Shown here in pieces: positions 34,312 to 45,207 of a stretch of 64,000 nucleotides of DNA. The translations under genes were made by a program, and so were the position numbers. The notes below the pieces were generated by a model. That model was not told the origin of the DNA and searched no databases. It saw nothing but the letters and a program-made list of their open reading frames with translations. The DNA comes from Ralstonia pickettii (lineage in GTDB: Bacteria > Pseudomonadota > Gammaproteobacteria > Burkholderiales > Burkholderiaceae). Location: positions 1 to 64,000 of the forward strand of contig NZ_MCGB01000092.1 in assembly GCF_001699815.1 (NCBI RefSeq). The letters run 5' to 3'. Each line of letters starts with the position of its first letter. Positions within the stretch are counted from its first letter, which is position 1.

Positions 34312-34875
34312 TTGAAGCCCATCCTATTTCGCGCGTTGTTGTCGCTGGCGTGCCTGTCCGCTGTGCCGCATGTGCATGCGCAGGCCGATACCACGTTCAC
34401 CGTCGAATCGCCTGCCTTTGCCGACAACGGCGTCATGGACCGCAAGTACGCCGGCAAGAACCCCGCCAACGCCAATTGCACGGGCGACAACGTCTCGCCG
34501 CCGCTGCACTGGTCGAACGTGCCCGCGGGCACCAACAGCCTTGTGCTGATCGTCTCCGACCCGCAGGGCGCGGGCGGCCTGGGCGTGAACCACTGGATGG
34601 CCTACGGTATGCCGGCCACGCAGACGAGCCTGCCGGAAGGCGCCGGCACCGGCCCGGCGCTGCGCATGGGCCAAAACTCCATCGGCAAGCCGGCGTATCT
34701 CGGGCCGTGTCCGCCCAAGGGCACCGGCATGCATCACTACGTATTTTTGCTGATCGCCACGGACCTGGCGCCGGATGCGCTGCCCAATGGGCTGACCCGC
34801 GCTGAACTGGATGCGGCCATCAAAGGGCATAGCAAAGGCGCCGCAGCCTGGATCGGCCGATTCGGCAACTTTTGA
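34312..34875 (+). CDS. Exported YbhB/YbcL (PEBP) family protein
   Basis: A phosphatidylethanolamine-binding-protein-like protein of 187 residues with a Sec signal peptide (ending AHAQA). A TTG start at 34312 is chosen because AGGAG lies 7 bases upstream and the signal peptide begins there. Family motifs are ENCTGDNVSPPLHW-like NCTGDNVSPPLHWS, LIVSDPQG, NHWMAYGMPA and GPCPPKGTGMHHYVF. The bacterial role is unknown. Confidence 0.88.
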   Translation: MKPILFRALLSLACLSAVPHVHAQADTTFTVESPAFADNGVMDRKYAGKNPANANCTGDNVSPPLHWSNVPAGTNSLVLIVSDPQGAGGLGVNHWMAYGMPATQTSLPEGAGTGPALRMGQNSIGKPAYLGPCPPKGTGMHHYVFLLIATDLAPDALPNGLTRAELDAAIKGHSKGAAAWIGRFGNF

Positions 34876-34924
34876 CGGATGCGAGGCCGCTCACGGTTCC
34901 GCGCTGCGCGCGGCCGGCGGCGGC

Positions 34925-35911
34925 TCACAATCCCGCTACCGGAAAATTCGCCTGCCAGACAGCGCTTTGTACGTTCACCGGTTTCGGAATCAGCTTCTGC
35001 TGCAGGAACAGGTCGGCAATCTGCTGCTGCGAGGCCACGATCTGCGGCGTGACCGGCGTGACGCCGTAGGGCACGCGCCGCAACCAGGTCTCGACAACGG
35101 GCTGCTCGATGCCGAGTTTGGGCGCCAGCAGGGCGGCGGTTTCCTGCGGATGCTGATTCACCCACAGCCCCGCCGTGCGCAACTGGGCCAGGATGGCATT
35201 GACCGCGCGCGGATGCGTGTTCACGAATTCCGGCGTGGCTTCGTAGAAGTTGAACACCGGCAGCTCGCTGAAATCGCCCAGCGTGCGTGTCTTCAACGCC
35301 TTCTGTGCCAGCGCGTAATACGGATCCCACACGACCCACGCATCGACCGCGCCGCTCTCGAAGGCTGCGCGCGCCTCGGCCGGTGGCAGGTAGATCGGCT
35401 GAATATCCTGCACCGTGAGGTTGGCGCGACGAAGCAGCTGCACCAGCAGGTAGTTGGAGCTGGAGCCCTTTTGCAGCGCGATGCGCTTGCCTTTCAGGTC
35501 AGCCACGCTGTGCGCGGGTGAGCTGTCGAGCACGAACAGCGCCTCGTTGGTCTTGCCGCCCGGCTCGGCCCCCACATAGACAAGGCGTGCGCCTGCGGCC
35601 TGCGCAAACACAGCCGGCGGCGCGCCGGTGTAGCCGAACTCAATGCTGCCGGTGTTGAGCGCCTCCAGCAGTTGAGGCCCGGCAGGGAATTCCTTCCATT
35701 CCACCTTGTAGCCAAGCTCGGCCAGCGGTTTGTCGAGCGCGCCTTGCGCTTTCAGCACCGCCAGCAGTCCGGCTTTCTGAAAGCCGATACGCACCGTGGT
35801 CGGCTCGGCGGCCTGCGTCAGGCCTGCGCACAGCGCCATGCCGGCGCCAAGCAATGCGGCCAGCCAGCGTCGGCGGCCAGATGGGGCGGTGTGGGGCGGA
35901 TGGCTTTGCAT
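34925..35911 (-). CDS. Sulfonate/taurine-type ABC transporter binding protein
   Basis: SsuA/TauA-like periplasmic binding protein of 328 residues with a signal peptide (cleavage near TQAAEP, residue 35). It shows VRIGFQKAGLLAVLKAQGALDK, GSIEFGYTGAPPAVFAQAAG, LKGKRIALQKGSSSNYLLVQLL and VDAWVVWDPYYA, all typical of aliphatic sulfonate binders. No permease or ATPase of this type lies in the window. It is 97 bases downstream of the DUF971 gene on the same strand and may belong to the GntR-headed operon. Confidence 0.88.
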   Translation of the reverse strand: MQSHPPHTAPSGRRRWLAALLGAGMALCAGLTQAAEPTTVRIGFQKAGLLAVLKAQGALDKPLAELGYKVEWKEFPAGPQLLEALNTGSIEFGYTGAPPAVFAQAAGARLVYVGAEPGGKTNEALFVLDSSPAHSVADLKGKRIALQKGSSSNYLLVQLLRRANLTVQDIQPIYLPPAEARAAFESGAVDAWVVWDPYYALAQKALKTRTLGDFSELPVFNFYEATPEFVNTHPRAVNAILAQLRTAGLWVNQHPQETAALLAPKLGIEQPVVETWLRRVPYGVTPVTPQIVASQQQIADLFLQQKLIPKPVNVQSAVWQANFPVAGL

Positions 35912-36008
35912 GGTTCCTCCTGCGTCGTCTGTGTTGTGCAGCTGATGCTACGGACAGCGCACGCACGAAGGAACGAACAAGATTGCATGTGGATAGACGC
36001 CGCCAACG

Positions 36009-36302
36009 TCAGCCCGGCGCTGCTATGGCGACAAGCTCCGCCAGATACGCCCACGGATAGATGCCGCGCGCATGTCCATCACTGAAAACCAGTTGCACGC
36101 CGTAACCCGCAGGCGCGATGCTGGTGACGCGCACGGCGGCCGGCACGTTGATCGGCGTGCCGTGATGGCGCTTGAACTGGCACTCCGCACAGCGGCACGC
36201 CTCGCGCAATGCCGCGTGGTCAAGTACGACAACGGCGTCTGCCCAGTGCAACCGCAGCCGGCCTTGGGCGACGTCGTTGTCGATACGCTCAGGCGGATGC
36301 AC
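36009..36302 (-). CDS. DUF971-family protein
   Basis: A small protein of 97 residues: IDNDVAQGRLRLHWADA, REACRCAECQFKRHHGTPIN with two cysteines near residues 38 and 41, then GYGVQLVFSDGHARGIYPWAYL. This is the DUF971/gamma-butyrobetaine-hydroxylase N-terminal-like fold, found alone or attached to iron-sulfur assembly proteins. A GTG start at 36302 is inferred, overlapping the HEAT-protein stop by 14 bases. The Cys and His pattern could bind a metal. The exact start is uncertain because the frame continues upstream inside the HEAT gene. Confidence 0.75.
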   Translation of the reverse strand: MHPPERIDNDVAQGRLRLHWADAVVVLDHAALREACRCAECQFKRHHGTPINVPAAVRVTSIAPAGYGVQLVFSDGHARGIYPWAYLAELVAIAAPG

Positions 36303-37248
36303 GGGCGCGCTCGATTTGTGCCAAGGCGATCCGCACGGCCTTGACGACTTCCGGGTCGCCATCGGTTTGTGCGCTGCGCAGGGCGGGCAGGGCAGAGGCT
36401 TCGCCGATCTCTCCCAGTGCGAGTGCCGCCTCCTTGCGCAGGTTGCTGATTGGGTGCGTGAGCAACGCAGCGAGCGCATCGACGGCATGCGCGGCGCGCC
36501 ACCGGCCAAGCGCGCGGGCCGCCTGTAGACGGACCTGCCAATATGCATCGGCCAGCGCATCCACCAACGCCTGCGTGACATGTAGGTCCGGAGCCAACGC
36601 CCGCAGTTTGCCGAGCGTGCTGGCGCTTTCCTCGCGCACGCGCCAGGCGGTGTCATGCAGCGCAGCGAGCAGCGCGGGCAGCACGGCAGCATCGGTGGCG
36701 AGGCCGAGGGCGCCCACTGCGGCACGGCGCACGTCGACATCCGCGTCATGGCGTGCGCGTTCCGCCAGAGCAGGCAATGCGCCCACATGCTTGCGCCAGC
36801 CGAGCACCGCAACGGCCTCGCGACGCACGGCGGCGTCGGCGTCTTGCAAGGCGTGCAGCGCGGGTGCTTCGCTCTCGGGCACGCGCAGTTCACGCAGCCC
36901 ACGCAATGCGGCGGCGCGTACAAAGGCGCTGGCATGGTCGACGTAAGCCAACAGCGCGGACGCAGACTCGGGCGATTTCAAATCGGCCAGGCCGATTGCC
37001 GCGGCATCACGCACGGCGCCATCCACATCTTCCAGCGCGCGGGCGAGTGCGGCCACGGTATCCGGCTGTTCCCACGTTGCGAGGATTCGCGCAGCTTCCA
37101 GCCGAACTTCGGGGGCAGGGTCTTGCTCAAGCAGGGCAATCACGTTTGGCAGCGAATCGGCGTCTTCTTCATCGGCGATCTGCAGCAGGGCAACGCGGCG
37201 GGTGGCGGCATCCGCGTCGTGCAGGCGCGCCAGGGGTGTTGTCGTCAT
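36289..37248 (-). CDS. HEAT-repeat (PBS lyase-like) scaffold protein
   Basis: The 319 residues are almost entirely tandem HEAT/PBS-lyase repeats of about 31 residues (e.g. VRLEAARILATWEQPD, VRDAAAIGLADLKSPE, VRREAVAVLGWRKHV, VRRAAVGALGLATDA, VRLQAARALGRWRAAH, LRKEAALALGEIGEAS). These form a helical scaffold for protein contacts. It begins 7 bases after the ferredoxin gene ends and overlaps the DUF971 gene. A role as assembly factor or scaffold for the flavoprotein/ferredoxin pair is inferred. Confidence 0.88.
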   Translation of the reverse strand: MTTTPLARLHDADAATRRVALLQIADEEDADSLPNVIALLEQDPAPEVRLEAARILATWEQPDTVAALARALEDVDGAVRDAAAIGLADLKSPESASALLAYVDHASAFVRAAALRGLRELRVPESEAPALHALQDADAAVRREAVAVLGWRKHVGALPALAERARHDADVDVRRAAVGALGLATDAAVLPALLAALHDTAWRVREESASTLGKLRALAPDLHVTQALVDALADAYWQVRLQAARALGRWRAAHAVDALAALLTHPISNLRKEAALALGEIGEASALPALRSAQTDGDPEVVKAVRIALAQIERARASA

Positions 37249-37255
37249 CGCCGCC

Positions 37256-37528
37256 TCAACGCAACAGGTACGGGATGTCGACCTTCACCGCGCCGGTCGG
37301 GCAGTCCTGCTCGCACGGCATGCAGTACCAGCATTCATCGAATTGCATGAAAGCCTTGCCTTTGGTCAGGTCGATGGCGAGCAGGTCGAGTGGGCAGACG
37401 TCGACGCACACGGTGCAGCCCTTGTCGGCAATGCACTTGGCTTCGTCGATGGTGACGGGCGCGCTGCTGCGCGAGGTGATGTCGTGCGGCGTGTGGGTGA
37501 AATGAACGGTCGTCTGTTGCATTGTCAT
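37256..37528 (-). CDS. AprB-like 4Fe-4S ferredoxin subunit
   Basis: This 90-residue ferredoxin has two 4Fe-4S clusters: CIADKGCTVCVDVCP near residue 32 and CWYCMPCEQDCP near 66. The spacing and the DECWYC sequence resemble the beta subunit of adenylylsulfate reductase, without its C-terminal extension. The ATG overlaps the stop of the flavoprotein gene (ATGA), so it is very likely its electron-transfer partner. Confidence 0.9.
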   Translation of the reverse strand: MTMQQTTVHFTHTPHDITSRSSAPVTIDEAKCIADKGCTVCVDVCPLDLLAIDLTKGKAFMQFDECWYCMPCEQDCPTGAVKVDIPYLLR

Positions 37529-39249
37529 GCAGCCTTCGGAATGCGCATCTGCGCGTAGGAATCGGTGCCGAGCACATCGACAGGGATGACGTACGGCTCA
37601 ACCGCCTGCTTGCGGCTGGCCATGGCGCCGTGTGCGTCCTTGTACAAGCGCGTGTGGCAGAACCAGTTGGCGTCGTCGCGTTCGGGGTAGTCCACGCGAT
37701 GGTGATACAGGCCCCAGCGGCTCTCGGTGCGGAAGAGCGAAGCGCGCGCGGCCATCTCGGCGCAATCGCGGATGAAGCTGACTTCCATCGCGCGCATCAG
37801 CTCGTGCGGGTTGCGCGCGTGCAGGTGCGTGATGTCTTCGGCAATCTCGTCGAAGCGGCGCAGGCCGATTTCCATCTTGCGCGTGACCTTGGGCGGCTGC
37901 AGGTAATCGTTCACCATGCGGCGCAGCTTGTATTCCACCTGGGCGGGGGCCAGTCCGTGGTCGCGTTGCAGCGGCGCAAAGATGCGCGCGCGTTCTCGTT
38001 CGATCTGCGCGTCGTCGACGCGGGCGACGCCTTGCCGGCCCGCGATGTAGTCCGCCGCGTTCTGCCCCGCAAACCAGCCATACGTAAACGCGCCGAGCAT
38101 GTAGTTGTGCGGCACGGCCGCCATGTCGCCCGCCGCGTAAAGGCCCGGCACGGTGGTTTCCGCGCGTGCATTCACATACACGCCAGACGCGCTGTGCCCG
38201 CTGCAGAAGCCGATTTCCGAGATGTGCATCTCCACCATCTGCGTCCGGTAATCGGTGCCGCGCCCCGCGTGGAAGCGGCCGCGGCTCGGGCGCTCGTTAG
38301 TGTGCAGGATGGTCTCGATGGTCTGGATGGTTTCTTCGGCCAGATGGTCGAGCTTGAGAAACACCGGCCCCTTTCCGCCCTGCAGCTCCTGGTAGAACTC
38401 CCACATCATCTGGCCGCTCCAGTAGTCGCACTGGATGAAGCGTTCGCCGCGCGCGTTGGCGGTGTAGCCGCCCAGCGGGCCGGTCACATACGCGCAGGCG
38501 GGGCCGTTGTAATCCTTGATGAGCGGGTTGATTTGGAAGCATTCCAGGTTGGAAAGCTCCGCGCCCGCGTGATACGCCATGGCATAGCCATCGCCCGCGT
38601 TGGTGGGGTTTTCGTATGTGCCCATCAGGTAGCCGGAGGCCGGCAAGCCAAGCCGCCCTGCAGCGCCGCAGCTCAGCACCACGGCCTTTGCGCGCACCAC
38701 GAGGAAATCCGCCGTGCGGCAATCGAAGCCGAGCACGCCGCAGGCGGCGCCATCGGCATCCGTCAGCACACGCGTGACGACAATGCGGTTCGTGATCTCC
38801 ACCCGCGCACGCTTGAGCTGGCGATACAGCACCTTCTTGATGTCGTGCCCCTCCGGCATCGGCAGCACGTAGCTGCCCATGTGGTGGACCTTCTTGACGG
38901 CATAGTCGCCGGTTTCGTCCTTCTCGAACTTCACGCCCCAGCGGTCAAGCTGCTCGATGGTGGCAAAGCTGTGCTGCGCATACGCATACACGCCCGATTG
39001 ATCGACGATGCCATCGTTGGCTAGCGTGATCTCGCGCGTGTATTGCTCAGGCGTGGCATGCCCGGGGATGACCGCGTTGTTCAGTCCGTCCATGCCCATC
39101 GAGATGGCGCCGCTGCGCTTCACGTGCGCCTTGTCGATCAGCAGCACACGCAGCGCAGGGTTGCGTTCTTTTGCCTTGATGGCCGCCATCGGGCCGGCCG
39201 TGCCGCCGCCCACGACGACGAGGTCGTACTCCAGTTCCAACGTGTTCAT
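37525..39249 (-). CDS. AprA/fumarate-reductase-like flavoprotein subunit
   Basis: FAD-dependent oxidoreductase of 574 residues. Visible are the dinucleotide fold VVVGGGTAGPMAAIKA near residue 12, DKAHVKRSGAISMGMDGLN near 40 (the AprA-like KxxxxRSGA segment), AKAVVLSCGAAGRLG, GDGYAMAYHAGAELSNLE and the second FAD motif TTVPGLYAAGDMAAVPHN near 362. It is closer to adenylylsulfate-reductase alpha than to succinate dehydrogenase, but no sat, aprM or qmo genes are near. Translation is coupled to the GntR gene upstream and the ferredoxin downstream. The substrate is unknown; a sulfur or sulfonate compound is suggested by the nearby binding protein. Confidence 0.88.
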   Translation of the reverse strand: MNTLELEYDLVVVGGGTAGPMAAIKAKERNPALRVLLIDKAHVKRSGAISMGMDGLNNAVIPGHATPEQYTREITLANDGIVDQSGVYAYAQHSFATIEQLDRWGVKFEKDETGDYAVKKVHHMGSYVLPMPEGHDIKKVLYRQLKRARVEITNRIVVTRVLTDADGAACGVLGFDCRTADFLVVRAKAVVLSCGAAGRLGLPASGYLMGTYENPTNAGDGYAMAYHAGAELSNLECFQINPLIKDYNGPACAYVTGPLGGYTANARGERFIQCDYWSGQMMWEFYQELQGGKGPVFLKLDHLAEETIQTIETILHTNERPSRGRFHAGRGTDYRTQMVEMHISEIGFCSGHSASGVYVNARAETTVPGLYAAGDMAAVPHNYMLGAFTYGWFAGQNAADYIAGRQGVARVDDAQIERERARIFAPLQRDHGLAPAQVEYKLRRMVNDYLQPPKVTRKMEIGLRRFDEIAEDITHLHARNPHELMRAMEVSFIRDCAEMAARASLFRTESRWGLYHHRVDYPERDDANWFCHTRLYKDAHGAMASRKQAVEPYVIPVDVLGTDSYAQMRIPKAA

Positions 39250-40031
39250 TTGGTGCCTTGCAAAGGAAGGATGGATTGCGCATGCGCCGCCACCTGCCGA
39301 TCCAGCCGAAGCCGGTACTGGAAAGCGTCGCCGCGAAAATACAGGCGTTCAAAATCGATGGGCGTGCCCTGTGCGTCGTGCGTCAGACGCTCCACGCGCA
39401 ACAGTGCCGCGCCTGCGCCCGTGTCGAGTGCGGTTGCGGTGGCGTGGTCGGCCAGCGCCGCATCGATGGCCAGCGTCGCATGACCGAGCGCCACCCCTGC
39501 GTCCTGCTCCAGCACGAGGAAAACATCGCGCGTGACGAGGTCCGCCCGCGCGACGCTGCTGCCCAGCGGCTCCGGCAGCCACGTCACCTCAAGGGAAACC
39601 GGCACCTGATCGAGCAACCGCACGCGATGCAATTCCGTGACGGCCGTGCCAGGTGCCAGTTGCAGCGCCTGTGCCACGTCGGTCGGCGCGGGCAGCGTGC
39701 GCAGCTTCAGCACGCGGTTACGGATGGCATGACCTTGTGCCGACATCGCCTCGGCAAAGCCCTGCAGCGCCGTCACGTTCTGAAAGGCCTTGGGCTGGCT
39801 CACAAACGTGCCTTTGCCGTGACGGCGGAAGATCAGCCCTTCGTTCTGCAGATCGGCCAGTGCCTGACGCACGGTGATGCGACTGGCGTTGAACTGCTCG
39901 CCCAGCGCCGCTTCCGACGGCAGCAGCGAGGCCGGCGCGTAGTGGCCGCTGAGAATGCCCTCGCGCAGCGTGCCCTTGATGCGCTCATAGAGCGGCGGGG
40001 CAGGTTGGCGGTGCAAATTTGAGGTGGTCAT
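39246..40031 (-). CDS. GntR-family (HutC/UTRA) regulator heading the AprA-like operon
   Basis: The 261-residue regulator has an N-terminal winged helix (PPLYERIKGTLREGILSG, SEAALGEQFNASRITVRQALADLQNEGLI near 40-70, GKGTFVS) and a C-terminal UTRA effector domain (TELHRVRLLDQVPVSLEVTWLPE, IDFERLYFRGDAFQYRL). ATG 40031 is chosen for family length. The stop overlaps the flavoprotein ATG, so it is co-translated with the operon and probably autoregulates it through the inverted repeats upstream. Confidence 0.9.
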   Translation of the reverse strand: MTTSNLHRQPAPPLYERIKGTLREGILSGHYAPASLLPSEAALGEQFNASRITVRQALADLQNEGLIFRRHGKGTFVSQPKAFQNVTALQGFAEAMSAQGHAIRNRVLKLRTLPAPTDVAQALQLAPGTAVTELHRVRLLDQVPVSLEVTWLPEPLGSSVARADLVTRDVFLVLEQDAGVALGHATLAIDAALADHATATALDTGAGAALLRVERLTHDAQGTPIDFERLYFRGDAFQYRLRLDRQVAAHAQSILPLQGTK

Positions 40032-40077
40032 CGATAGGCGCAACTCGTCATAACAAGTGCGCCCAGTGTAAAAAGCA

Positions 40078-40135
40078 GGCGTATGCAGCGGAACGAAGCT
40101 TTTTCGATATGCATGCTCGGTTTTTGGCATACGCC
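40078..40135. promoter_or_regulatory. Inverted-repeat array upstream of the GntR gene
   Basis: GGCGTATGC (40078-40086) and GCATACGCC (40127-40135) are perfect 9-bp arms 40 bases apart. TATGCA occurs in the left arm (40082-40087) and again at 40108-40113. Three related sites about 23-26 bases apart suggest cooperative binding of a dimeric regulator, most likely the GntR protein. Confidence 0.5.
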
Positions 40136-40221
40136 GCCGCCACAGCTCTGGCTGAGCGGTCTGCACAGCTGGCATCGCCTTGCGCGATGTTGGTGCGCTG
40201 CACGATGCGCAAACGCTGTGT

Positions 40222-40243
40222 CTGATATCAAAACCGATATCAG
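40222..40243. promoter_or_regulatory. CTGATATC dyad, candidate operator
   Basis: CTGATATC (40222-40229) and GATATCAG (40236-40243) are perfect 8-bp arms around AAAACC. It lies 183 bases before ytfQ and 190 bases before the GntR gene, so either could be the target. Confidence 0.45.
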
Positions 40244-40426
40244 TCAGCCCCCAAAAAAACATTAGACGGTCATGTCAGGCTGTCCATACCATGGCTCACC
40301 ACGGATCACCGGCAAGGGAAGACGGGCGCCGCATGCCGGATTCGACTCGTGTATCGCGTTGCAAAGACGACGTGCGCAGCCCCGGGGGTAGTGACCGGCT
40401 GCGTTCCACCATAACGGAGACAAACG

Positions 40427-41413
40427 ATGCAAAAAACGAGCGCTGCGTGCGCCAGACGGACCGTATTGACCTTCCTGGCTACGGCCGGTGTGCTGCTGGC
40501 CACGGGCTTGGCGACAGCGGCGCACGCGGCTGACAAGTCGTTCACCATGGGTTTTGCCCAGGTGGGCGCCGAGAGCGAATGGCGGACCGCCAATTCGGAG
40601 TCGATCAAATCGACGGCCAAGGCGCAGGGCGTGAACCTGAAGTTCTCCGACGCGCAGCAGAAGCAGGAAAACCAGATCAAGGCAATCCGCTCGTACATCG
40701 CGCAGAAGGTCGACGTCATTGCGTTCTCACCGGTGGTGGAATCCGGCTGGGACACGGTGCTGCAGGAGGCCAAGGCCGCCAAGATTCCGGTCATCCTGAC
40801 CGACCGCGGCATCGACAGCAAAGACACCTCGCTCTACACCACGTTCATCGGATCGGATTTCGTCGAGGAAGGCCGCAAGGCGGGCCGCTGGCTGCTTGAA
40901 AACGTCAAGCCCAAGGGTGACGTGAACATCGTCGAGCTGCAAGGCACCGTCGGCTCTGCGCCCGCCATCGACCGCAAGCGCGGGTTTGAAGAGATCATCA
41001 AGGCCGACCCGCACTACAAGATCATCCGCTCGCAAACCGGCGACTTCACCCGCGCCAAGGGCAAGGAAGTGATGGAAGCCTTCCTGAAGGCCGAGGGTAA
41101 GAAGATCAACGTGCTGTACGCGCACAACGACGACATGGCGATCGGTGCCATCCAGGCCATTGAAGAGGCAGGGCTCAAGCCGGGCAAGGACATCACCATC
41201 ATCTCGATCGACGGCGTGAAGGGCGCGTTTGAAGCCATGATGGCCGGCAAGCTGAACGTCACGGTGGAATGCAGCCCGCTGCTCGGGCCGCAACTGATGG
41301 ACACCGCGCGCGCCGTGCTGGCAGGCAAGACCGTGCCCAAGCGCATCGTCACCAAGGAAGGCATCTTCCCGATGGAGGTGGCGGCCAAGGAGTTCCCGAA
41401 CCGCAAGTACTGA
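40427..41413 (+). CDS. ytfQ: Galactofuranose-type ABC transporter binding protein YtfQ
   Basis: The 328-residue periplasmic sugar-binding protein has a signal peptide (cleavage near AHAAD, residue 35). It follows E. coli YtfQ closely: MGFAQVGAESEWRTAN, QQKQENQIKAIRSYIAQKVD, IVELQGTVGSAPAIDRKRGFEE, IIRSQTGDFTRAKGKEVMEAF and YAHNDDMAIGAIQAIEEAGLKPG. It is first of four transporter genes. The ligand in this organism could be galactofuranose, galactose or another furanose. Confidence 0.93.
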   Translation: MQKTSAACARRTVLTFLATAGVLLATGLATAAHAADKSFTMGFAQVGAESEWRTANSESIKSTAKAQGVNLKFSDAQQKQENQIKAIRSYIAQKVDVIAFSPVVESGWDTVLQEAKAAKIPVILTDRGIDSKDTSLYTTFIGSDFVEEGRKAGRWLLENVKPKGDVNIVELQGTVGSAPAIDRKRGFEEIIKADPHYKIIRSQTGDFTRAKGKEVMEAFLKAEGKKINVLYAHNDDMAIGAIQAIEEAGLKPGKDITIISIDGVKGAFEAMMAGKLNVTVECSPLLGPQLMDTARAVLAGKTVPKRIVTKEGIFPMEVAAKEFPNRKY

Positions 41414-41513
41414 GGGGGGGGCATTCGCAAGCCCTTTGCTGAATCGGGGAATGCAGGCGGGGCGGGTGACGGTGACTCGCCTTGCCGGTATGCACCCTCA
41501 ACAGGCCACACCC

Positions 41514-43091
41514 ATGTCCGATCACGTTGATCAACCCGCCGCGACAGATGCACGCGGCGCGCTGCTGCACATGCGCGGCATCTGCAAGAACTTTCCCGGC
41601 GTGCAGGCGCTGGCCGCGGTCGATTTCCGCTTGTTTCCCGGAGAAGTGCACGCTCTGATGGGGCAGAACGGCGCCGGCAAGTCGACGCTCATCAAGGTGC
41701 TGACGGGCGTTGAAGCGCCCGATGCGGGCGAGATCGTGCTCGGCGGTCAGCCCATCGCGCCAAGCTCGCCGCTGGAGGCGCAAAAGCTCGGCATCAGCAC
41801 GGTGTACCAGGAGGTCAATCTCTGCCCGAACCTGACCGTGGCGGAGAACATCCACATCGGCCGCTTTCCCATGCGCATGGGCAGCATCGACTGGCGGGCC
41901 ACCAACCGGGCGGCGCAGGCGCTGCTGGCTGATCTGAACATCCACATCGACGTGACGCTGCCGCTGTCGCTGTATCCGGTGGCCATTCAGCAGATGGTGG
42001 CGATTGCGCGCGCGCTTTCCACCGAAGCCCGCATCCTGATCCTGGACGAGCCCACCTCCAGCCTGGACGATGACGAAGTAGCCCGCCTGTTTGCCGCCAT
42101 CCGCACACTCAAGGCACGCGGCATGGCCGTGCTGTTCGTCACGCATTTTCTGGAGCAGACCTACGCGATTGCCGACCGCATTACCGTGCTGCGCAACGGC
42201 CGGCTGGAGGGCGAATATGCCGCGCGCGATCTGCCGCAACTGCAACTGATCAACAAGATGGTCGGGCGCGACATCGATGCGAGCCGCTTCGAGCGCACCG
42301 AGGTGCCATCCGTGGATGACACCGCGCCCGCATTCCTGAGCGCGCGCGGCATGGGCCGTCGTGGTGTCGTGCAACCGCTCGATCTGGACGTCCGCCCCGG
42401 GCAGGTGCTCGGCCTTGGCGGCCTGCTCGGCTCAGGCCGAACGGAGACCGCGCGGCTGCTGTTCGGCGTTGACCGCAACGATGCGGGCTCGATCAACGTG
42501 CACGGGCAAGCGCGCCAGTTCAGCTCGCCGCGTGATGCCATCCGCCAGGGCATCGGCTTCTGCCCGGAAGACCGCAAGACCGAGGGCATCATCGCCGAGC
42601 TGTCGATTCGCGAGAACATCATCCTCGCGCTTCAGGCCAAGCGCGGGCTGTTCCGCTATCTGCCCAAGAAGCGCCAGCGCGAGATTGCCGACCAGTACAT
42701 CGCCCAGCTCGGCATCAAGACGCCCGACGCTGAAAAGCCGATCGGCCAACTCTCGGGCGGCAACCAGCAGAAGGCCGTGCTCGCGCGCTGGCTGGCGACC
42801 GACCCGGCCATGCTGATCCTGGACGAACCCACGCGCGGCATCGACATTGCCGCCAAGCTCGACATCATGGACCTGGTGACCGCGCAGTGCCGCAAGGGCA
42901 TGGCGATCCTGTTCATCTCCAGCGAGCTGCCGGAGGTGCTGCGCGTGAGCCACCGGCTGGCGATCCTGCGCGATCGCAAGAAGGTGGGCGAGCTGGCCGG
43001 CGCCGATGTGACGGAAGACAACCTGTGCCACGTGATTGCCGGCGGCGACGTGCCCGCCAGCCAATCCACCACCACCGGAGGCGCTGCATGA
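41514..43091 (+). CDS. ytfR: Galactofuranose-type ABC transporter ATPase YtfR
   Basis: Sugar ABC ATPase of 525 residues with two nucleotide domains. The first has GQNGAGKST near residue 52 and ILILDEPTSSLDDDE. The second has GLLGSGRTE near 306, [18 protein letters not shown] and [15 protein letters not shown] 41514 is preferred; ATG 41490 in frame is possible. Its stop overlaps the ytfT start. Confidence 0.93.
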   Translation: MSDHVDQPAATDARGALLHMRGICKNFPGVQALAAVDFRLFPGEVHALMGQNGAGKSTLIKVLTGVEAPDAGEIVLGGQPIAPSSPLEAQKLGISTVYQEVNLCPNLTVAENIHIGRFPMRMGSIDWRATNRAAQALLADLNIHIDVTLPLSLYPVAIQQMVAIARALSTEARILILDEPTSSLDDDEVARLFAAIRTLKARGMAVLFVTHFLEQTYAIADRITVLRNGRLEGEYAARDLPQLQLINKMVGRDIDASRFERTEVPSVDDTAPAFLSARGMGRRGVVQPLDLDVRPGQVLGLGGLLGSGRTETARLLFGVDRNDAGSINVHGQARQFSSPRDAIRQGIGFCPEDRKTEGIIAELSIRENIILALQAKRGLFRYLPKKRQREIADQYIAQLGIKTPDAEKPIGQLSGGNQQKAVLARWLATDPAMLILDEPTRGIDIAAKLDIMDLVTAQCRKGMAILFISSELPEVLRVSHRLAILRDRKKVGELAGADVTEDNLCHVIAGGDVPASQSTTTGGAA

Positions 43092-44137
43092 ACCCCGTCA
43101 ATCTGCGCGCACTGACTGGCCACCGATTGTTCTGGCCGGGCGTGACGCTGCTTTTGCTGTGTCTGCTCAACGCGTGGTTCAACCCGCATTTCTTTCACCT
43201 CGACATTCGTAATGGGCATCTGTACGGCAGCCTGATCGACATCCTCAACCGCGCAGCACCGCTCATGCTCGTATCGCTCGGCATGACGCTGGTGATTGCG
43301 GTGGGCGGCATCGATATTTCAGTGGGCGCGGTGGTCGCCATTTCCGGCGCCATTGCGGCATCGCTTGTCGGCGGCACGCTGGTCGTGCAGAACGGCCTGC
43401 CCGTGTATGTGACCAAGGCCCCACTGCTGCTGGCGCTGCTGGCTGCGGTGGGCGCAGCGTTGGTGTGCGGCCTGTGGAATGGCCTGCTGGTGGCGGGTGC
43501 GGGCATGCAGCCCATCATCGCCACGCTGATCCTGATGGTGGCCGGCCGCGGCGTGGCGCAGCTCATTACCGGCGGCCAGATCATCACCGTGTACTACGAG
43601 CCGTTCTTCTTCGTGGGCAATGGCTATCTGTTCGGGCTGCCGTTTGGGTTGTACATCGCGGCTGCTGTGCTGGGCCTGTTGTTGCTGTTGATGCACCGCA
43701 CGGCGCTGGGTCTGTTTGTCGAGGCCGTCGGCATCAACCCCGTGGCCGCGCGTCTTGCGGGGCTCAACACCAAGGCGCTGCTGTTTGGCATCTACGCATT
43801 CTGCGGCGCCATGGCCGGTGTTGCGGGGCTCATCATCTGCTCCAACGTCAAGAGCGCGGACGGCAACAACGCCGGGCTGCTGCTGGAGCTTGACGCCATC
43901 CTGGCCGTCACGCTGGGCGGTACCTCCCTGGCGGGCGGCAAGTTCAGCCTGTGGGGCAGCGTGATCGGGGCGCTCATCATCCAGACGCTGACCTACGCGA
44001 TCTATTCGATGGGTGTGCCGCCAGAAATCAACCTCGTGGTGAAAGCCGTGGTGGTGTTTGCCGTATGCCTGGCGCAATCGGAGGCGTTTCGCAGCATGCT
44101 CTTTCAACGCCACAGCCGTGCGGGGGCGCAGTCATGA
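43088..44137 (+). CDS. ytfT: Galactofuranose-type ABC permease YtfT
   Basis: Membrane subunit of 349 residues with about nine TM helices and the family motifs GMTLVIAVGGIDISVGAVVA near 63, GMQPIIATLILMVAGRGVAQLITGG near 145 and ELDAILAVTLGGTSLAGGKFSLWGSV. The start lies in the ytfR stop (ATGA), and the stop overlaps the yjfF start. Together with YjfF it forms a heterodimeric channel, as in E. coli. Confidence 0.92.
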   Translation: MNPVNLRALTGHRLFWPGVTLLLLCLLNAWFNPHFFHLDIRNGHLYGSLIDILNRAAPLMLVSLGMTLVIAVGGIDISVGAVVAISGAIAASLVGGTLVVQNGLPVYVTKAPLLLALLAAVGAALVCGLWNGLLVAGAGMQPIIATLILMVAGRGVAQLITGGQIITVYYEPFFFVGNGYLFGLPFGLYIAAAVLGLLLLLMHRTALGLFVEAVGINPVAARLAGLNTKALLFGIYAFCGAMAGVAGLIICSNVKSADGNNAGLLLELDAILAVTLGGTSLAGGKFSLWGSVIGALIIQTLTYAIYSMGVPPEINLVVKAVVVFAVCLAQSEAFRSMLFQRHSRAGAQS

Positions 44138-45207
44138 GAATCAATCCACGGCGCTTGCCGTTCTACGTCACGCTGTTTTTGTTTGCGCTGTTGTTCGGCT
44201 TCGGCTCGGTGACTTACACGGGCTTCTTCAGCGTGCAGGTGTTTCTCAATCTGCTGATCGACAACGCGTTCCTGATCGTCGTTGCTATCGGCATGACGTT
44301 CGTCATTCTATCGGGCGGCATCGATCTATCGGTGGGGGCGGTGGTGGCGCTCACCACCATGATCTCCGCCGCGCAGGTCGAACACCACGGCTGGTCGATC
44401 GGTGTGGTGGTGCCTCTGGTGCTCGCCGTCGGGTGCCTGTTCGGCCTGGTGATGGGCGTGCTGATCCAGGTGTTCCGGATTCAACCGTTCATCGTCACGC
44501 TGGGCGGCATGTTCCTCGCGCGGGGGCTGTGCTACCTCATCAGCATCGATTCGATCAGCATTACAGACCCGATCTATACCGCGCTGTCGCAGTACAAGAT
44601 CCAGGTGGGCGGCGGCAATTACGTATCGCCCAGCGTGGTGATTGCGCTGGTCGTGTTTGCCGCGGCGGCGTGGCTCGCGCATTGCAGCCGCTTTGGCCGC
44701 ACGGTGTACGCGCTGGGCGGCAATGAACGGTCTGCGTTGCTGATGGGTTTGCCGGTGGTGCGCACGCGCATCCTCGTCTATGTGCTCAGCGGGTTTTGCT
44801 CGGCACTGGGCGGCGTGCTGGTCACGTTCTACATGCTGTCCGGCTACGGGCTGCACGCGCAAGGTATGGAACTGGACGCCATTGCCGCCACGGTGGTCGG
44901 CGGCACGCTGCTCACTGGCGGCGTGGGGCTGATCAGCGGTAGTGTGGTGGGCGTGCTGTTGCTGGGCGTCATCCAGTCGCTGATCACCTTTGACGGCACG
45001 CTCAGCTCCTGGTGGGCGCGCATTGCCATTGGCGTGCTGCTGTGCCTGTTCTGCCTCATGCAGCGTTTCCTGGGGCGCGCGCAACGCGGAGCGTCATTGC
45101 CCCCGTCGACCCCGCACAGGCCGGCGCGGCCGTCGAACGAGACGGCCAAGGACGCCCCGGCCTCGGCCATCCTCATGCAGTCGCACGCCGTACCGCCTTT
45201 CAATTAG
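44134..45207 (+). CDS. yjfF: Galactofuranose-type ABC permease YjfF
   Basis: The second permease, 357 residues, carries FVILSGGIDLSVGAVVALTTM near 60, QPFIVTLGGMFLARGLCYLIS near 115 and MELDAIAATVVGGTLLTGGVGLISG near 248. A hydrophilic Pro/Arg-rich tail (about 312-357) is longer than in E. coli. It is the last gene of the ytf operon. A truncated aroQ remnant follows after 46 bases. Confidence 0.92.
   Translation: MRINPRRLPFYVTLFLFALLFGFGSVTYTGFFSVQVFLNLLIDNAFLIVVAIGMTFVILSGGIDLSVGAVVALTTMISAAQVEHHGWSIGVVVPLVLAVGCLFGLVMGVLIQVFRIQPFIVTLGGMFLARGLCYLISIDSISITDPIYTALSQYKIQVGGGNYVSPSVVIALVVFAAAAWLAHCSRFGRTVYALGGNERSALLMGLPVVRTRILVYVLSGFCSALGGVLVTFYMLSGYGLHAQGMELDAIAATVVGGTLLTGGVGLISGSVVGVLLLGVIQSLITFDGTLSSWWARIAIGVLLCLFCLMQRFLGRAQRGASLPPSTPHRPARPSNETAKDAPASAILMQSHAVPPFN

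Follow-up and report, generated by a model that had tools for sequence, protein, structure and literature searches.

The window analysed here is a stretch of 64,000 nucleotides of Ralstonia pickettii DNA, with which contig NZ_MCGB01000092.1 (138 kb) begins, in a genome of 5.24 Mb. An operon in this window, all on the minus strand (36009-40031), encodes a GntR regulator, a flavoprotein, a ferredoxin, a HEAT-repeat protein and a DUF971 protein, and the flavoprotein and ferredoxin resemble AprA and AprB, the subunits of adenylylsulfate (APS) reductase. Our preferred reading, to which we give a probability of roughly 0.45, is that this pair would reduce an organosulfur compound or a sulfur oxyanion brought in from outside, a substrate deduced from the importer and neighbouring genes of relatives. 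Judged from its sequence, the enzyme is not an APS reductase, yet it is built like one. The protein families were already held in databases under the name of fumarate reductase; what appears to be new is a reductase of the AprBA type whose active site is altered and which is accompanied by helper proteins and, in most relatives, by an importer. The features of the locus are as follows.

39246-40031, minus strand: GntR/UTRA regulator, heading the operon (PF00392, 4.5e-21; PF07702, 5.1e-37)
37525-39249, minus strand: flavin adenine dinucleotide (FAD) protein of the AprA/FrdA superfamily, NF006131 (PRK08275), likely catalytic subunit (1127.5 bits, tree and active-site columns)
37256-37528, minus strand: AprB-like ferredoxin with two [4Fe-4S] sites, likely electron donor subunit (PF12838, 3.1e-8)
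36289-37248, minus strand: HEAT-repeat protein (PF13646, 1e-52)
36009-36302, minus strand: DUF971 / GBBH-like_N protein, candidate Fe-S maturation factor (PF06155, 9.8e-20, 71.5 bits, cut-off 22.8)
34925-35911, minus strand: SsuA-type sulfonate-binding protein, a neighbour outside the conserved set (TIGR01728, SsuA_fam, 234.6 bits, cut-off 163.5)
40043-40058, no strand assigned: probable operator ACTTGTTATGACGAGT (family consensus ACTTGTYATRACAAGT)

A preliminary description of this DNA had reported that the five genes from GntR to DUF971 overlap or abut, and all of these joints were located. The GntR and flavoprotein genes share an ATGA overlap (39246-39249), as do the flavoprotein and ferredoxin genes (37525-37528), while 7 bases separate the ferredoxin gene from the HEAT gene and a GTG start at 36302 gives the DUF971 gene a 14-base overlap with the latter (the alternative extent is 36009-36305). 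The SsuA gene follows after 97 bases. No terminator-like site was found in this last gap, and over 34700-40440 such matches occurred at the level of chance (5 versus a mean of 4.6).

Conservation of the gene set around the flavoprotein

Gene content was compared in 135 loci from three phyla, all selected by the presence of the flavoprotein: 40 neighbourhoods (23 from relatives and 17 from a sample of the phylum), 80 named loci (the best 80 of at least 520 confirmed) and 15 loci from a plasmid collection. The window is not among the 135, and counts out of 136 include it. Neighbouring genes were detected at preset bit-score thresholds, using seeds from the window and some of the scanned loci; 20 stretches from arbitrary places in genomes of the same set served as the control. 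The ferredoxin was present in all 135 loci, a separate HEAT gene in 130, DUF971 in 114, a SsuA/TauA-like binding protein of ~470 amino acids in 86 and Mrp/NBP35 in 3, as against 0 of the 20 controls in each case. Five loci had no separate HEAT gene: three of them lay at contig ends and two were actinobacterial. As some named and other loci represented the same contig, counts were collapsed at 97% flavoprotein identity; this gave 82 groups, window included, with the ferredoxin in 82, HEAT in 78, DUF971 in 65 and all three transporter genes together in 56. In 129 of 136 rows the ferredoxin gene came next downstream of the flavoprotein gene, in the same orientation. The comparison of gene order proposed in the preliminary description has thus shown that the neighbours are co-conserved with the flavoprotein. 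The set was also present in cyanobacteria and actinobacteria; no constant extra gene was found beyond the core, and other neighbouring families varied by lineage.

The flavoprotein family NF006131 is widespread: in samples of 120 relatives and of 398 genomes from the phylum, 33 and 21 genomes respectively (our genome included in both) have a member above the family cut-off, yet it is annotated as fumarate reductase. NF006131/PRK08275 and NF010374/PRK13800 are named only as flavoprotein subunits of fumarate reductase or succinate dehydrogenase. Among open-licence PMC papers, none was found to name either family for bacteria and none to describe the gene set, in keeping with the initial impression that no described system has exactly these components.

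Several observations were made on the distribution of the module. It is carried by rhizobial plasmids of Mesorhizobium, Sinorhizobium and Rhizobium (L178, L195 and L198), with sulfonate genes and a NodA-family gene close by in one of them (L195). Seven loci (L049, L051, L052, L053, L079, L088 and L176) have an extra FdxA-like ferredoxin gene close to the module, annotated as FdxA in L176.

The two smaller conserved genes are candidates for helper functions. In both actinobacterial loci that were read, a stretch like the HEAT protein of the window is fused to the flavoprotein frame, and for this reason we infer that the HEAT protein is part of the complex or docks onto it. The same arrangement is embodied in the NF010374/PRK13800 model (898 positions), which joins an NF006131-like flavoprotein to HEAT repeats, its first two thirds matching the flavoprotein of the window and its end the HEAT protein. 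A PADLOC search returned only HEAT-repeat matches. In all three cyanobacterial loci that were read, an Mrp/NBP35 gene (ParA and FeS_assembly_P domains) occupies the place of DUF971, and HCF101, an Fe-S scaffold of the Mrp/NBP35 NTPase family, carries a fused DUF971 domain; from these two facts a role for DUF971 in Fe-S maturation may be deduced. Because of the cyanobacterial replacement, the operon offers a small genetic setting in which DUF971 function could be tested.

The flavoprotein and its relation to AprA

The flavoprotein is a member of NF006131/PRK08275 (1127.5 bits, cut-off 587) and contains FAD_binding_2 and Succ_DH_flav_C domains. Its closest flavoprotein in the PDB was the alpha subunit of the 3'-phosphoadenylylsulfate (PAPS) reductase of Methanothermococcus (3.4e-64), followed by AprA of A. 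fulgidus. Scores of 189.6 bits against the aprA model TIGR02061 (cut-off 641.75) and 293.8 bits against PRK06854 (cut-off 557), the type to which the methanogen enzyme is assumed to belong, were both below the curated thresholds, and nothing in the whole genome exceeded the TIGR02061 cut-off. A structure model built from 20 close sequences reached a predicted local distance difference test score (pLDDT) of 53.6, and the fold match serves as support only.

A tree that included AprA, SdhA and NadB, of the kind recommended in the preliminary description, placed the flavoprotein outside SdhA and NadB in a clade of its own. This maximum-likelihood tree of 23 chosen rows, which gave long-branch warnings and weak deep forks (74/92), contained the NF006131 family as one clade (97/99), AprA with the methanogen PAPS reductase as a second (100/100) and SdhA with NadB as a third (100/99). 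Two further Burkholderiales flavoproteins of AprA-like type (L181:7894-9657 and L182:7702-9387), below the cut-offs of the models listed, formed a separate clade of their own, and a ferredoxin gene with a CWxC motif adjoins that of L181.

Alignment A1 excluded locus L012. In the active site, the column of AprA Asn74 holds Asn in 136 of 136 rows, a residue common to AprA and PAPS reductase and not found in SdhA or NadB, and that of His398 (column 352) holds His in 136 of 136; the roles and numbers of these two residues are those of AprA. Numbering of N74, W234 and R265 agreed with the structure match, while H398 was placed by alignment only. The KDxxGP motif of AprA is present, unlike in SdhA and NadB, and the HGANRL-type stretch of the latter two was not found in the flavoprotein. 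At the column of AprA Arg265, Leu occurs in 136 of 136 rows, as against Arg in the six AprA rows and in PAPS reductase. Where AprA has its nucleotide-holding loop, the sequence also differs and carries a near-invariant KVHHxGxYVLPMPxG.

The ferredoxin exhibited eight Cys residues and a CWxCxxCxxxCP motif in 136 of 136 rows, the same motif being found in AprB rows. Its closest small subunits in the PDB were the AprB chains 3gyx_B (2.1e-9) and 1jnr_B (4.7e-7), ranked behind two multi-domain ferredoxins. The PDB ranking and this motif agree with the original designation of an AprA-like flavoprotein and an AprB-like ferredoxin. A Trp of the ferredoxin subunit has been proposed to act in electron transfer in the methanogen PAPS reductase (PMC10322725). 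A ferredoxin-NADP reductase gene lay in the stretch of 10 of 135 loci, and a large GltD-like reductase (PRK06567-like, 606.6 bits, below the cut-off of 1072) in four rows, two of which were seeds; the proximity of these genes suggests that electrons flow towards the flavoprotein.

The absence of sat noted in the preliminary description extends to the whole genome, in which PF01747 had 0 matches, whereas the same search gave matches in 5 of 14 control genomes. No product named aprM or qmo was annotated in 14 plasmid neighbourhoods with incomplete gene tables, no search of the genome aimed at them having been made. Two PF01507 (CysH/CysD-type) genes are present. It is the Leu at the Arg265 column, the different nucleotide loop, the absence of sat and these two PF01507 genes that set the enzyme apart from APS reductases.

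Relative to AprBA, the operon thus shares the KDxxGP motif, the retained Asn and His and the ferredoxin motif, and differs in the missing AprB C-terminal tail, the change of Arg265 to Leu, the lack of sat in the genome and the separate clade. The Methanothermococcus PAPS reductase (PDB 8a8o; PMC10322725) is likewise a fumarate-reductase-family FAD subunit with a two-[4Fe-4S] ferredoxin, with a Trp in the ferredoxin subunit, assimilatory use and equivalents of Asn74 and His398. The present enzyme differs in having Leu at the Arg265 column and a different substrate loop, with no nucleotide chemistry expected, and in its company of HEAT and DUF971, joined in the majority of relatives by an importer of sulfonate type.

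Importer, substrate and competing explanations

The commonest gene order with an importer in Beta- and Gammaproteobacteria was GntR, flavoprotein, ferredoxin, binding protein, permease, ATPase, HEAT and DUF971. The permease and ATPase of an ATP-binding cassette (ABC) transporter, noted as missing in the preliminary description, are therefore found in relatives alongside the ~470-residue binding protein. These transporters are close to SsuABC and TauABC; the closest solved relatives of the binding protein are SsuA and TauA, and nitrate NtrB was ranked first for the permease. The binding protein differs in scoring below the SsuA_fam cut-off and in having an extra C-terminal part. This part, in L177:14094-15518 and homologues, is weakly NosL-like: 14 of 16 members matched at E values up to 1 (best 4.3e-4) and one cyanobacterial protein reached 24.1 bits against a cut-off of 24, a likeness that rests on weak Pfam scores, as no NosL structure was among the 50 structure-match rows shown. 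Cyanobacterial LysR regulators of ~670 amino acids (L174:9676-11676 and L193:9388-11424) also match the binding protein, as if sensing the transported ligand. At 1e-60, the binding protein was detected in 12 of 120 relatives, 11 of which hold the flavoprotein.

The SsuA protein of the window had been included in the operon by the preliminary description and was rejected as its binding protein, being 24-30% identical to the ~470-residue protein, roughly 120-160 residues shorter, devoid of the C-terminal part and linked in only 6 of 13 Ralstonia-type rows (our genome is of this class; the window is included and some rows are the same contig). The link to a sulfonate-type transporter is supported through the different binding protein of relatives and not through the window SsuA. 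Sequence comparison identifies the latter as a second SsuA, a paralogue separate from the conserved binding protein; it scored 295.8 against PRK11553, just under the cut-off of 299. No permease or ATPase gene was found beside it with family seeds in 20001-60000. An Ssu permease, SsuC (383 bits, cut-off 347), is encoded on contig C29, with an ATPase and an SsuA of 46% identity as its neighbours. The permease and ATPase seem to have been lost from Ralstonia-type genomes together with their own binding protein.

Genes for YeiH, TauE/SafE-TSUP, TauD, LLM monooxygenase or SfnB lay near 30 of 135 loci and 0 of 20 controls, a count that leans upwards because eight of the 135 loci supplied seeds. Annotated sulfur genes were also present in Nostoc and Sinorhizobium neighbourhoods. 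The resemblance of the importer to SsuA/TauA and these neighbouring genes are together suggestive of a sulfur-containing substrate.

A mechanism can be proposed. The operon would produce a cytoplasmic AprBA-like reductase, in which electrons, in some relatives derived from NADPH via ferredoxin-NADP reductase or from a GltD-like reductase, would enter the two [4Fe-4S] clusters of the ferredoxin and travel on, by the conserved Trp of this subunit, to the large-subunit FAD. The FAD would then reduce a small substrate containing sulfur, be it an organosulfonate or a similar S-oxo compound, yielding usable sulfite or sulfide. DUF971, or Mrp/NBP35 in cyanobacteria, would supply the ferredoxin with Fe-S clusters; maturation factor, ferredoxin and flavoprotein would be held together by the HEAT protein. 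GntR would bind the operator at its own start and control mainly its own operon. Most relatives would import the substrate via the dedicated SsuA/TauA-like ABC system, whereas Ralstonia would use another route, perhaps the window SsuA working with the Ssu permease from another part of the genome. What the sequences show directly is the gene layout and its conservation, the place of the flavoprotein among families, the conserved operator and the lack of sat and of the cognate binding protein; complex formation, the direction of electron flow, the roles of DUF971 and HEAT, the regulation and the substrate are all deduced.

A number of results weigh against a sulfur-compound reductase. The sulfur-linked neighbours are a minority, with seeds from the same loci and a small control, and nitrate, bicarbonate or thiamin are further ligands of SsuA-like binding proteins (lower structure-match rows). 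The ~470-residue binding protein was absent from the stretch read in 49 of 135 loci and from all 16 Ralstonia-type genomes, our own included, 15 of which have the flavoprotein. Neither DUF971 nor Mrp was present in the stretch of 18 of 135 loci, three of them cut by contig ends. The retained His is also found in SdhA and NadB, and the replacement of Arg265, invariant as described above, means that the chemistry of AprA may not carry over and argues against a simple transfer of its sulfite chemistry. Both structure models are weak (pLDDT 53.6 for the flavoprotein and 64.8 for the importer protein of L100).

A bolder form of the preferred reading, which we regard as doubtful though worth stating, is an oxygen-independent, assimilatory system of reductive desulfonation in aerobes, in which the AprBA-type enzyme would cleave or reduce organosulfonates after import, with its own mini Fe-S assembly unit consisting of DUF971 or Mrp/NBP35 and a HEAT adaptor. 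Parts of such a unit would have analogues in NBP35 and MMS19 of the cytosolic pathway of eukaryotes. Known aerobic desulfonation relies on oxygenases such as SsuD and TauD, and a ferredoxin-driven reductase, if true, would be a different solution. SsuD is described as a desulfonating oxygenase in PMC4267179.

The most durable of the other explanations, though an unlikely one, is that the enzyme is an enoate reductase of the fumarate reductase type, reducing a C=C bond in some organic anion that is taken up and contains no sulfur, with the sulfur neighbours being incidental. The domain composition fits this, the superfamily contains fumarate, urocanate and tricarballylate enzymes, and the His at column 352 is common to SdhA and NadB. 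Against this stand the position in the tree, apart from SdhA/NadB albeit with weak deep forks, the lack of the HGANRL-type stretch, an Asn57 and KDxxGP as in AprA and not SdhA/NadB, and the sulfur-linked neighbours with an importer closest to SsuA/TauA.

Less likely again is an electron-supply pair, as proposed for AsfAB, in which the flavoprotein and ferredoxin would feed a sulfonate oxygenase encoded elsewhere. PMC4267179 and PMC2864759 present AsfA and AsfB as a pair of reductase and ferredoxin that aromatic desulfonation requires, and the asfRABC system of arylsulfonate desulfurisation, by its parts the closest of the named systems, resembles the present one in combining such a pair with a binding protein for sulfur scavenging, differing in its control by LysR. 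TauD or LLM monooxygenase genes do occur near some loci, but no oxygenase is constant in the set and the active-site positions are invariant in 136 of 136 rows, suggesting catalysis in the flavoprotein itself. There was also no sign of AsfA homology at the level tested, which was a replicon search at 1e-60 and not a comparison with AsfA itself: NC_007974 of C. metallidurans, presumably CHR2, was not among the 53 records matching the flavoprotein family. CHR2 holds asfAB (PMC2864759). An Asf identity of the operon, considered because asfAB is likewise a reductase-ferredoxin pair, found no support at this level, as a replicon expected to carry asfAB has no family member at 1e-60. The sole flavoprotein match at E 1e-3 within 710-850 kb of NC_007974 was TcuA-like (NF006130, 781.1 bits). 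On the C. metallidurans megaplasmid (L199:33508-36226), a TcuA-like flavoprotein is followed by an open reading frame (ORF) with two Cys clusters, and an ORF resembling an IS30-type transposase lies between this pair and a LysR-like ORF. From locus-tag numbering and position, the TcuA-like flavoprotein and Cys-rich ORF on NC_007974 are perhaps asfAB.

It is improbable that the enzyme runs in the opposite direction, oxidising sulfite, a thiol or a sulfinate and passing electrons to ferredoxin or NADP. AprBA of sulfur oxidisers does run in the oxidising direction, and the YeiH and TauE/SafE exporters of some loci could remove a product, but the dedicated importer and the FNR/GltD-type reductases near some loci point to electron supply, and a quinone-linked partner was not seen among the genes of the annotated neighbourhoods. 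It is very improbable that the pair is a divergent APS or PAPS reductase of sulfate assimilation: although the closest solved structure is the methanogen PAPS reductase, the flavoprotein falls below both curated cut-offs, has Leu in place of Arg265 and a different nucleotide-binding loop, and belongs to a genome without sat in which two PF01507 genes are already present.

Regulation and adjacent genes

A conserved, probable operator was identified just before the GntR gene. Within 120 bases upstream to 30 bases inside this gene, 107 of 113 GntR-headed loci scored at least 9/12 against ACTTGTNNNNACAAGT, compared with 4.3% of base-shuffled stretches; as these loci also supplied the consensus, this score measures conservation and is not an independent prediction. 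The position of the operator, just before 40031, favours the ATG at 40031 over that at 40262 as the GntR start. The window contained one match with up to three mismatches (0.12 expected), and the genome one perfect place. In 7 of 10 genomes the perfect operator word was confined to a single place, from which it is probable that GntR mainly controls its own operon. Of the others, G040 had a one-mismatch site only, at the operon, and G058 and G078 had none. Two extra one-mismatch sites occurred elsewhere in G057. Matches to a looser pattern in our genome were at background (51 versus 58 for the control). In the loci of Alphaproteobacteria and cyanobacteria, GntR mostly gives way to Crp/Fnr or LysR neighbours.

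Further upstream of GntR lies an inverted repeat, CTGATATC-GGTTTT-GATATCAG (40222-40243). Among the eight Ralstonia-type rows printed, the CTGATATC-N6-GATATCAG repeat is perfect only in the window and L096 and is altered in L097.

On the plus strand upstream of the operon (40427-45207), the genes read as a ribose-type sugar ABC importer, with a binding protein, an ATPase and two permeases. Genes resembling such an importer also occur near some other loci of the set.

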